DNA from: Pleurostoma richardsiae
Taxonomy: Eukaryota; Ascomycota; Sordariomycetes; Calosphaeriales; Pleurostomataceae
DNA: 64,000 bases
Assembly (NCBI GenBank): GCA_030052745.1
Contig: JANBVO010000015.1
Coordinates: forward strand, 310,001 to 374,000
Reading direction: 5' to 3'
Every line of letters begins with the position of its first letter. Position 1 is the first letter of the stretch. The notes under the pieces are model-generated. The model saw nothing but the letters and a program-made list of their open reading frames with translations. It did no database searches and was not told the DNA's origin. The translations under genes were made by a program, and so were the position numbers. Below are positions 32,399 through 57,681 of the stretch, one piece after another.

Positions 32399-34161
32399 AT
32401 GAGCAAAGACCACGAGTCAGTGATGCCGCCCGACGCAGACGAGGGAAACTTCGAAAAGGAGCGAGACGCGGTAATCCATGACATGGTCAACGAACCGGGT
32501 TCAGCGCAATCCAGGGAGGATGCCATCAATAAGGAGACCCAGGCTGGTGTTCAGAAGGTCGAGGCCATCGCCACAGTCTGGACGATGACCGCACTCCTAA
32601 CGGCCTACGTGCTTATTTGGATCGTCTACTTCATCATGTTGATACAGCAAGGCGCCGGGGCAGCACTGAACCCCTATGTGACCTCGGCGTTCCAGTACCA
32701 TTCTCTCACGCCCACGGTCGGCATCCTCAGCAGCGTCATCGGAGGAGTGTGCAACCTGACCGTCGCCAAGATTCTAGACATCTTCGGACGAGCACAGGGC
32801 TATATCATGTCCCTTCTAATTTCAACTGTCGGCCTAGTCATGATGGCGGCGACTACAAATGTGGAAATGTACGCCGCTGCAATGGTATTTTGGACCGTCG
32901 GCAACAACGCCTTACTCTACAGCGTCAATATCTTAGTTGCTGACACGACGGCCCTGCGCAACCGTGGACTTATGACGGCGTTGACATCGTCACCTAATAT
33001 CATAACGATCTGGCTAGGCGGTCCCATCTCGGAAGCTTCCTCAAGGGTCCTGGTTGGCGCTGGTGCTTTGGAGCATTCTCCATCATTGTACCAGTCATGT
33101 GTCTCCCCTTGTTCATCGTATTATGGCTTAACTACCTCAAGGCTAAACGCCAGGGGGTTTTAGCAGTGAAAAAACAGACAAGGACACCCTGGCAATCATT
33201 TATATACCATTACTGGGAGTTCGACGCTGTTGGCATCCTCTTGTTGACAGGTGGCTTAGCTCTAATTCTCCTGCCCTTCAACCTCTATGCTCTGCAACCG
33301 CTGGGATGGCGATCGCCGCTCATCATCTGTCTACTGGTTTTCGGCATAATTCTGATCATTGTATTTGCCTTGTGGGAAAGGTTCTTCGCGCCAGTCACCT
33401 TCATTCCTTTCTCATTGCTACTCGATCGCAATATGGTCGGCGCCTGCGTGCTTGGCGCCGTCCTCTTCTTCAGCTTCTACTGCTGGAATAGCTTCTTCAG
33501 CTCCTTTCTCCAGGTGGTCAACAACCTCAGCGTCACCAAAGCTAGCTACGTCGTTCAGATCTACGGCCTTGGCAGCAGTCTCTTTTCGATCGCTACCGGT
33601 GTAGCCATTCGATATACTGGTCGCTTCAAAGCCATCACACTTTACGGAGCTATACCTGTTTACACTCTGTTTATGGGCCTTATGATCTACTTCCGGGAGC
33701 CAGGTATGACTGTTGGCTACATCATCATGTGTCAAATATTCGTCTCATTTGCCGCCGGAACCATCATCATCACCCCTCAGATCGCCGCCATGTCCGCCTC
33801 CTCTCACCAACATATTGCAGCCGTCGTGGCTATTATCTCCATGTTCTCGTCCATTGGTGGCGCCATAGGCCTCACGGTTGCCGGCGCCATCTGGCAGTCC
33901 ATCTTCCCGGCCAAGCTTGCCGAATATCTGCCGGCTGAGGACCAGGATAATCTCCTCAACATATACGCCATGCTTGACGTACAACTCAGCTATCCGGTCG
34001 GGACCCCTGCGCGGATGGCTATTCAGCATGCGTACGCCGACGCGCAAAAGATGATGTTGATTGCCGGCACATCCATCTGGGCTGTCGGGGTGGTTGCCGT
34101 TGCTTTCTGGAGGAACACCGACGTCAAGAACTTGAAGCAGGTGATGGGCCATGTCATCTGA
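32399..34161 (+). pseudogene. MFS siderophore-iron transporter (SIT type), one frameshift
   Basis: The ATG at 32399 opens a frame without introns that carries SIT hallmarks: ALLTAYVLIWIVYFIMLIQQ, LNPYVTSAFQYHSLTPTVGI, DIFGRAQGY, VGNNALLYSVNILVADTT and RNRGLMTALTSSPNIITIW. At 33031-33040 the frame changes. GGPISEA continues as FLKGPGWRWCFGAFSII only one frame over, as though a TTT had become TT at 33037-33038. From there it is open again to the stop at 34159-34161, with DAVGILLLTGGLALILLPF, GRFKAITLYG and VVAIISMFSSIGGAIG. Without the shift the product would be about 587 residues, the normal SIT length. Such carriers import ferric siderophores by proton symport. Either a recent pseudogene or a one-base sequence error. 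Confidence 0.85.
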
Positions 34162-34465: not shown

Positions 34466-34597
34466 AGCACCGTAGCTCAGGGGAAGAGCGGTAAGTCTAT
34501 AATAACCTGAATTTCCAATTCCAGCAAGTTCTCTAGCTAACATTCAATAGCCGGGCTCATAACCCGGAGGTCCCTCGATCGAAACGAGGCGGTGCTA
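34466..34597 (+). tRNA. Initiator tRNA-Met (CAU), split by a 60-nt insert at 26/27
   Basis: Joining 34466-34490 and 34551-34597 gives a perfect 72-nt cloverleaf. Acceptor AGCACCG pairs with CGGTGCT; D-stem GCTC/GAGC; anticodon stem CCGGG/CCCGG around CTCATAA (anticodon CAT at 34558-34560); variable AGGTC; T-stem CCTCG/CGAGG around ATCGAAA; discriminator A. The A1-U72 pair, the three G-C pairs next to the anticodon loop, and A54/A60 in the T-loop are diagnostic of the eukaryotic initiator. An A box (TAGCTCAGGGG), a B box (GATCGAAAC region) and a T8 run downstream fit Pol III. The insert sits between nucleotides 26 and 27 and not at the canonical 37/38 site; the CCGGG needed by the anticodon stem lies after the insert, so no canonical alternative fold works. 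Confidence 0.85.
34491..34550 (+). other. Spliceosome-like intron inside the initiator tRNA gene
   Basis: The insert starts GTAAGT, has the perfect fungal branch consensus GCTAAC at 34536-34541, and ends AATAG nine bases later. Its 60-nt length equals that of the protein-gene introns in this window. Exact removal restores the tRNA. How it is removed, if at all, is unknown. Confidence 0.75.
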
Positions 34598-34607
34598 TCC
34601 ACTCAAA

Positions 34608-34615
34608 TTTTTTTT
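34608..34615 (+). terminator. Pol III terminator of the initiator tRNA
   Basis: Run of eight T, beginning 10 bp after the discriminator base. Confidence 0.75.
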
Positions 34616-35104: not shown

Positions 35105-35175
35105 TGCGCCAGCCCGGAGTCGAACCGGGGGCTCATCGATGGCAACGATGAATTTTACCGCTAAACCACTGGCGC
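35105..35175 (-). tRNA. tRNA-Gly (GCC), no intron
   Basis: Minus strand, 71 nt. Acceptor GCGCCAG/CTGGCGC, anticodon stem CATCG/CGATG around TTGCCAT (GCC anticodon), T-arm CCCGG TTCGACT CCGGG, discriminator A. A TTTT run lies just downstream (35100-35097). Confidence 0.95.
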
Positions 35176-36968: not shown

Positions 36969-37076
36969 TCTTCCGTAGTATAGTGGTCAGTATGTGAGCT
37001 TGTCACTAGGGACTTGGTCCTTCAAGGCCCGCTCCAGACATCGCTCGAGACCCGGGTTCAATTCCCGGCGGGAGAG
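36969..37076 (+). tRNA. tRNA-Asp (GUC) with canonical intron
   Basis: Acceptor TCTTCCG/CGGGAGA (one G-T pair), anticodon GTC at 37002-37004, anticodon stem TGAGC/GCTCG, T-arm CCGGG TTCAATT CCCGG, discriminator G. The intron, 37006-37041 (36 nt), begins right after nucleotide 37, the standard place. T5 at about 37097-37101 can terminate Pol III. Confidence 0.92.
37006..37041 (+). other. Canonical 37/38 intron of tRNA-Asp
   Basis: 36 nt, one base 3' of the anticodon. It lacks GT-AG ends, as expected for a Sen-endonuclease substrate. Confidence 0.85.
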
Positions 37077-55823: not shown

Positions 55824-57681
55824 ATGGTGAACTTGTTTACACCCAAGGTCACTGAGGGAGACGCGGTGCCTGCTCCCTTGGGGGCGCTGTCCACGTCTTC
55901 CAAGGAGGATACTAAGTTTAGAGACGGCATCCCTCCGCCACCACATGATGACAACGCTGGTGAAGTCGGTAAGATGACCAGCAATGCCGGCACAACGTCC
56001 GGTTTCTGGCGCTTCACGGCGTCCTACGTGGCCATCCACTGACAAGCAATACAGGGCGCCTCGAGCAGGTTCGGGAGGCCAAGCGCCAGATCGGCATCCC
56101 CACGGCCATCTTCCTCATCTTCAACCGTATTGTCGGCACCGGCATCTTCGCAACGCCGTCGGCCATCTTGTCGTTGTCGGGCAGCGTGGGCTTGTCGCTC
56201 TTCATCTGGGTGGCAGGAATGCTGATTGCCGGCGCCGGCACCGCCGTGTACCTCGAGTTTGGCACGGCAATACCACGCAATGGCGGTGAGAAGAACTATC
56301 TCGAATACGTGTTCCGGCGGCCGCGGTTCCTGACCACGGGCTTGTACACGGGATACGTCATCCTCCTTGGCTGGGCCGGTAGCAACAGCGTCATCTTCGG
56401 CGAGTACATCCTGCATGCCGCCAACAAGGATGTCGACCGCTGGAACCAGCGAGGCATCGGGCTGGCCTGCATCACCACTGCCTTCCTCATCCATGGCTGC
56501 GCGCTCAAGTGGGGCCTGCGTTTGCAGAACTTGCTCGGCACCATCAAGCTCATTGTTGTGCTCATCATTATCGTGGCCGGCTGGGTCGCGCTGGCAGGCC
56601 ACGTCAAGCTGCCCGAGGATGAGAAGCCGCACAACTTCCGCAACGCCTTCGAGGGCACCACGGGCAGCGCGTATGGTGTCGTCACGGCGCTGTACAACGT
56701 CATCTGGAGCTACATCGGGTACAGCAACGCCAACTACGCCCTGTCCGAGACCAAGAACCCCGTCCGCACGCTGAAGATCGCCGCCCCGCTTGCCATCGGC
56801 GTGGTCTCGGTGCTTTACATGCTCGTAAACATCGCCTACTTCGCCGCTGTCCCGAAGGACGAGATCCTGGCTGCCCAGCGCCTGGTCGCCGCCTCGCTGT
56901 TCCGCAATGTCTTCGGCGGCACCGCCGAGCGCGCGCTCTCCGTGTTTGTTGCTCTGTCCGCGTTCGGCAACGTCCTCAGCGTCATCTTTTCCCAAGGGCG
57001 ACTCGTCCAGGAGCTTGGCCGCGAGGGCGTGCTACCTTTCTCGCGCTTCTGGGCTAGCAATCGCCCCTTCAATGCGCCCCTTGCCGGTCTCTTCGAGCAC
57101 TGGCTCGTGTCTGTGATCATTATGTTGGCACCGCCACCTGGTGATGCTTATAACTTTATCCTCAAGTATGTCACGAGCATAGCCCAAACTTATAGAGCGC
57201 CCCCCCGGCCCCCCCCTCCTCCCCCCCTTTTTTTTCTGCATTCTGCCCTCTCCGAAAATCCTTTTGCTAATATGGATTACTCTCCAGTGTTATATCATAT
57301 CCCCTCGCCATTGTCAACACTTTCGTCGCTGCAGGTCTGCTCCACTTGTATATCCACCGCGCGTCCTGGAATTGGCACCCTCCCATCAGTGCGACGATCC
57401 CCGTCGTGGTCTTCTTCCTGCTCAGCAACATCTACCTCGTCGCGGCTCCCTTCGTCCCACCTACTGACGGCCAAAACGTTTACGAGTCTCTACCCTACTG
57501 GATCCACTGCGTCGTTGGCTTTGGCATCATCTTCGCTGGCGGCGTTTACTGGCTTGTGTGGGCGGTGATCCTGCCCAGGATCGGCGGCTATGAGCTCGTT
57601 AGGGAGACAGTCGTCGACGACATCGATGGCTGGGAGAGGAATGTTTTCATTAGGAAGCCGTTGAGAAGGCTGGACAAATAG
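55824..57681 (+). CDS. LAT-type amino-acid permease, MUP1-like (methionine)
   Basis: Three exons: 55824-56001, 56055-57165 and 57288-57681, 560 residues. After a disordered N-terminus the first intron (donor GTTTCT, branch CTGAC) is removed to give REAKRQIGIPTAIFLIFNRI and VGTGIFATPSAILSLSGSVG, the helix 1 block of L-type permeases. Further blocks are YLEFGTAIPRNGGEKNYLEY, NVIWSYIGYSNANYALSETK, ALSAFGNVLSVIFSQGR, and the C-terminal PYWIHCVVGFGIIFAGGVYW. Yeast Mup1 and Mup3 (methionine/cysteine) are the nearest known relatives. The second intron, 57166-57287, carries C-runs and a T-run. Likely at the plasma membrane. Confidence 0.92.

Follow-up and report, generated by a model that had tools for sequence, protein, structure and literature searches.

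An initiator tRNA-Met gene of Pleurostoma richardsiae interrupted between positions 26 and 27 by a putative spliceosomal intron

The split gene, its surroundings and its insert-free counterpart

The window, i.e. the whole stretch of 64,000 nucleotides that was analysed, corresponds to C44:310001-374000 in the assembly of Pleurostoma richardsiae (Calosphaeriales, Sordariomycetes). Positions 34466-34597 on its + strand hold an initiator tRNA-Met gene that is interrupted between tRNA positions 26 and 27 by 60 nt. Exon 1 (34466-34490, +; 25 nt) comprises the 5' strand of the acceptor stem, the whole D arm and position 26. It is followed by the insert, which has the appearance of a spliceosomal intron (34491-34550, +), and by exon 2 (34551-34597, +; 47 nt) with the whole anticodon arm, the variable loop, the T arm, the 3' strand of the acceptor stem and A73, the anticodon CAT being located at 34558-34560 (+) by ARAGORN. 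The insert occupies a hinge of the molecule, the D arm being encoded entirely by exon 1 and the anticodon arm entirely by exon 2. When the exons are joined in silico, they yield 72 bases that form a complete cloverleaf and are recognized by ARAGORN as tRNA-Met(cat). The features that we take to be the marks of an initiator tRNA can all be read from the joined sequence, namely A1-U72, GGG/CCC next to the anticodon loop, A54 and A60, in agreement with the first-pass annotation, according to which deletion of 34491-34550 leaves a faultless initiator tRNA of 72 nt.

The gene has the elements of a Pol III transcription unit. Two segments, which we take to be the A and B boxes according to their consensus, are intact: the A box TAGCTCAGGGG of the internal promoter (34473-34483, +) lies within exon 1 and the B box region GATCGAAAC (34577-34585, +), which includes A54 and A60, lies within exon 2. 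Counting from the start of the gene, TTTT is first found at 34608, where it opens an oligo-T (T8) terminator (34608-34615, +) that is separated from the end of the gene by 10 nt, and no oligo-T intervenes between the boxes and this stop. The insert contains 19 T with a longest run of 3 and hence no TTTT, the absence of which is weak evidence as TTTT arises in 27% of cases when the 45 non-signal bases of the insert are shuffled.

On the unspliced locus, Rfam finds nothing between 34300 and 34800 at E<=1, and ARAGORN either passes over the gene or calls it tRNA-Pyl, a call we take to be spurious. Thus, annotation pipelines of this type would probably miss the split gene.

The surroundings contain further genes. 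Upstream, a gene for a siderophore transporter (mirB-like; 32399-34161, +) is matched by its relatives in two reading frames, the junction of which lies near 33035. The public protein bridges the frames by a modelled intron of 197 nt (33063-33259), which we doubt since two relatives align through it; the conflict may stem from a frame break, a sequencing error or an odd gene model. An ordinary gene for tRNA-Gly(GCC) is located close to the initiator gene (35105-35175, -). The gene for tRNA-Asp(GTC) (36969-37076, +) contains an ordinary intron of 36 nt at 37/38, in contrast to the insert at 26/27.

The assembly, which was searched in full (39,432,242 bases in 136 contigs), contains two initiator genes according to a pattern that covers the anticodon loop, the variable region and the T loop and tolerates up to 2 mismatches, namely the split gene and a gene at C61:224272. 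The count of further initiator copies, which the first-pass annotation had left to be made, thus stands at one. The C61 gene lacks the insert and is continuous at exactly the 26/27 site. The exon junction is fixed by this continuity. The boundary of the insert is ambiguous by one base (G34490 or G34550), and we adopted the GT-AG register. In the C61 gene the first TTTT follows 86 nt after the start of the gene. A match of GGGCTCATAACCC on C102 was considered as a third initiator gene and rejected, as it is not a tRNA. A search for the tRNA family in the genome scored 63 of 807 candidates, which is too few for isotype counts.

The joined 72-mer and the C61 72-mer differ at nt 5 (C/A) and nt 67 (G/T) only, i.e. 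at the two sides of a single acceptor-stem pair, which is C5-G68 in the split gene and A5-U68 in the C61 gene. The flanks of both genes are unrelated, with 16 of 60 positions upstream and 24 of 60 downstream being identical in a gap-free comparison. That the only change in the tRNA body is a double change preserving a pair, while the flanks bear no relation to each other, argues for selection having acted on both genes at some stage after their separation. It does not follow that this selection continued after the insertion.

Splice signals of the insert

The insert contains a complete complement of fungal splice signals, with a 5' splice site, a branch site and a 3' splice site as found in GT-AG introns and at the usual spacing, and its ends agree with the exon limits defined by the C61 gene. 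GTAAGT is located at 34491-34496 (+), GCTAAC at 34536-34541 (+) and TAG at 34548-34550 (+). Based on the sequence and on the pattern statistics given below, the presumed branch A is A34540, 9 nt before the A of the terminal AG and 10 before its G. All signals reported by the first-pass annotation, i.e. GTAAGT, GCTAAC nine bases before the AG, and AATAG, can be read in the sequence. A random 60-mer of local composition would match GTAAGT...CTRAC...YAG, with 12 placements allowed for the branch site, with a probability of ~2e-7.

The strict pattern GTAAGTN{31,51}GCTAACN{3,9}TAG occurs at 41 places in the whole genome (insert included) as compared to 7 for the backward control, the pattern having been constructed around the insert itself and its matches being counted regardless of whether they lie in genes. 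As about 34 of the 41 matches are in excess of chance, most of these stretches are presumably introns. The other 40 have a median length of 59 (range 51-74, with 46-75 permitted by the pattern), similar to the 60 nt of the insert, and the distance from the branch A to the last G is 10-12 nt in 32 of them and 7-13 in all, which is the range the pattern permits; in the insert it is 10. The GC content of the insert, 0.33, is an outlier against the 0.46 +- 0.05 of these 40 stretches.

Of three introns of the window whose removal reproduces annotated proteins two were used, the mirB-like 33063-33259 being left out as doubtful. Both the intron at 55969-56054 (86 nt; GTAAGA...CTGAC...CAG) and that at 57166-57287 (122 nt; GTATGT...CTAAT...CAG) agree exactly with the annotated protein and have the same architecture as the insert, but are longer.

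Looser scans were too noisy to define the introns of this genome, and the strict whole-genome pattern was used instead. In the window, GTAAGT combined with CTAAC is found twice on the + strand and not on the - strand (control mean 0.2, maximum 2, per strand), GTAAGT with CTRAC twice and once, respectively (control mean 0.6, maximum 3), and GTRNGT with CTRAY 17 times on either strand (control mean 9.45, maximum 18). In a set of 203,326 bases, GTAAGT with CTRAC occurs 9 times versus 2-6 times in five controls, and the counts for GTANGT and GTRNGT are 37 versus 16-21 and 66 versus 35-44, respectively.

The predicted folding of the precursor does not set the insert apart, its energy being like that of shuffled inserts, 171 of 300 of which are as low or lower. 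In the predicted ensemble the branch-site bases GCTA would be mostly paired, as would the G of the 5' splice site, whereas the branch A is predicted to be free (0.98); in the predicted fold of lowest energy GCTA pairs with exon 1.

When the insert was compared with the whole genome at the level of BLAST similarity, where diverged copies are missed, it retrieved only itself at E<=10 (one candidate scored). Thus, the insert does not appear to have been copied recently from an intron that still exists, although its signals match the consensus, and with no similar copy in the genome we do not class it as an introner or a recently copied intron. A search for relatives in collections of viral, bacterial and archaeal contigs gave 0 matches. 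Narrow CTAAC and CTGAC patterns, beyond which further cases are possible, were used to look for a spliceosomal 3' end close to the B box of other tRNA genes, and each returned one match in the genome and one in the backward control. By our reading these matches are an uninterrupted tRNA-Gly gene closely preceded by a CTAAC and a tRNA-Tyr gene with an ordinary intron.

GC content and predicted folding apart, the best reading of these features is that the insert is a spliceosomal intron in a Pol III gene. The suggestion of the first-pass annotation that a Pol II-type intron has entered a Pol III gene is likewise the best reading of a locus at which consensus splice signals coincide with intact Pol III elements.

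Possible fates of the split transcript

We propose that one of the two initiator genes contains a genuine spliceosomal intron of the GT-AG type, situated between its D and anticodon arms. Directed by the intact A and B boxes, Pol III would transcribe this gene as far as the oligo-T stop, and the spliceosome would recognize GTAAGT, GCTAAC and TAG in the nuclear precursor and join exons 1 and 2 exactly. The product would be a normal tRNAi, which would then be trimmed and modified and may finally be used in the cell. The intron itself was likely reverse-spliced into the tRNA transcript, which then underwent reverse transcription and recombination. We assign a probability of roughly 0.55 to this explanation as a whole, i.e. 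to a genuine spliceosomal intron, transcription by Pol III, removal by the spliceosome and a normal tRNAi. The exons, the splice signals, the intact Pol III elements and the insert-free second gene, from which it starts, are established by the sequence.

Alternatively, the split gene may be a dead copy, i.e. an intron or intron-like DNA entered the gene, the transcript stays unspliced and the C61 gene supplies all tRNAi. As this second gene is intact, the split copy could be dispensable. For the same reason the split gene falls under a prior taken from the accessible part of a review, where short insertions in the D or T arm of eukaryotic tRNA genes are described as mostly affecting one of many synonymous genes and as supposed signs of pseudogenes (PMC4090602). 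However, the 72 nt of exon sequence exhibit no decay beyond the one compensated pair, the splice signals are at consensus, the Pol III boxes and the terminator are intact, and no donor was found in the genome. As a recent insertion from an unseen donor would also leave the exons intact, we keep the dead copy at about one in four.

The normal substrates of spliceosomes are Pol II transcripts, and the insert could also be removed from such a transcript, e.g. one resulting from read-through of the siderophore transporter gene, with the tRNA, if there is any, being cut out. The mirB-like coding sequence is located on the same (+) strand and ends at 34161, ~300 bp upstream of the tRNA gene. Nevertheless, both elements of the internal Pol III promoter are intact, the T8 stop starts 10 nt past the end of the gene, and we regard the Pol II route as rather improbable. 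Together with spliceosomal removal and the dead copy it makes up the options listed by the first-pass annotation, which turn out to be the right set.

Canonical introns of eukaryotic tRNAs are located at 37/38 and are cut by the Sen endonuclease. Like these, the insert interrupts a nuclear tRNA gene, but it sits at 26/27 and carries GT-AG and branch-site signals. It might still be removed by Sen and a ligase acting outside the canonical position, as in red algae and nucleomorphs, since Cyanidioschyzon and Guillardia are known to possess non-canonical tRNA introns (PMC4090602, accessible part), many of those in Guillardia being without a defined bulge-helix-bulge (PMC3978253, accessible part). 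We rejected a bulge-helix-bulge intron as the central helix of four base pairs is not formed in either register (2/4 and 1/4 pairs possible, G-T counted), and a canonical Sen-type intron at 37/38, also by way of an alternative fold, as the anticodon arm is continuous within exon 2. Moreover, the ordinary intron of the tRNA-Asp gene in the window does sit at 37/38, and GTAAGT, GCTAAC and TAG would be needless for Sen. With the bulge-helix-bulge absent and the site not being 37/38, the endonuclease route is unlikely, and we give it very little weight. Least probable of all is an assembly error or a meaningless chance insert, as the insert sits exactly between intact exons and its signals would hardly be found in a random 60-mer (~2e-7).

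Relation to known introns and implications

Tani and Ohshima reportedly worked on U6, and Canzler et al. are said to have described the repeated gain of U6 introns. In fission yeast the U6 snRNA, a Pol III transcript, contains an mRNA-type intron, for which an origin by reverse splicing has been proposed (PMC10484740, accessible part), and the premise of the first-pass annotation that Pol III transcripts are not known as substrates of the spliceosome is thus wrong. Like U6 of Schizosaccharomyces pombe (PMC10484740, accessible part), the split tRNA would be a small structured Pol III RNA with an mRNA-type intron, and by analogy the insert is probably removed by the spliceosome as well. Unlike the tRNA, U6 belongs to the spliceosome, which serves to explain the insertion of introns into it, and the U6 gene found here is intronless.

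According to the accessible part of PMC5832005, U3 and U6 are the only small structured RNAs for which frequent interruption is known. The introns of fungal U3 snoRNAs resemble the insert in that a GT-AG intron lies inside a small structured RNA (PMC5832005, accessible part), although this RNA is a snoRNA and not a tRNA and the single U3 gene found here is uninterrupted. The one U6 match (L053, C49:929565-929667) and the one U3 match (L054, C48:53268-53545) in this genome both lack introns, unlike the genes of some other fungi, so that there is no sign of a general gain of introns in its small RNA genes.

The ectopic tRNA introns of Cyanidioschyzon merolae and of nucleomorphs share with the insert a position outside the canonical site (PMC4090602, accessible part). 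However, the same part of this source gives the Guillardia insertions as 3-24 nt and states that the bulge-helix-bulge seems critical in C. merolae, whereas the insert has 60 nt, spliceosomal signals and no bulge-helix-bulge. In the open literature, most subscription papers lying outside the search, we found no spliceosomal intron reported for a nuclear tRNA gene, and none is described in the accessible parts of PMC3978253, PMC6461891 and PMC13149111.

Owing to the one base pair that distinguishes the initiator genes (C5-G68 versus A5-U68), their products can be separated by tRNA sequencing and the claim is easily testable. More specifically, we consider it an even bet that a Pol III pre-tRNAi is spliced at 26/27 via GT-AG chemistry and that the supply of tRNAi from this gene depends on the capacity for pre-mRNA splicing. 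If the proposed spliceosomal removal is true, the spliceosome can act on a Pol III transcript to which it is unrelated, the gain of introns by reverse splicing into abundant RNAs would be supported, and the tRNA that starts every protein would be matured by the mRNA splicing machinery.
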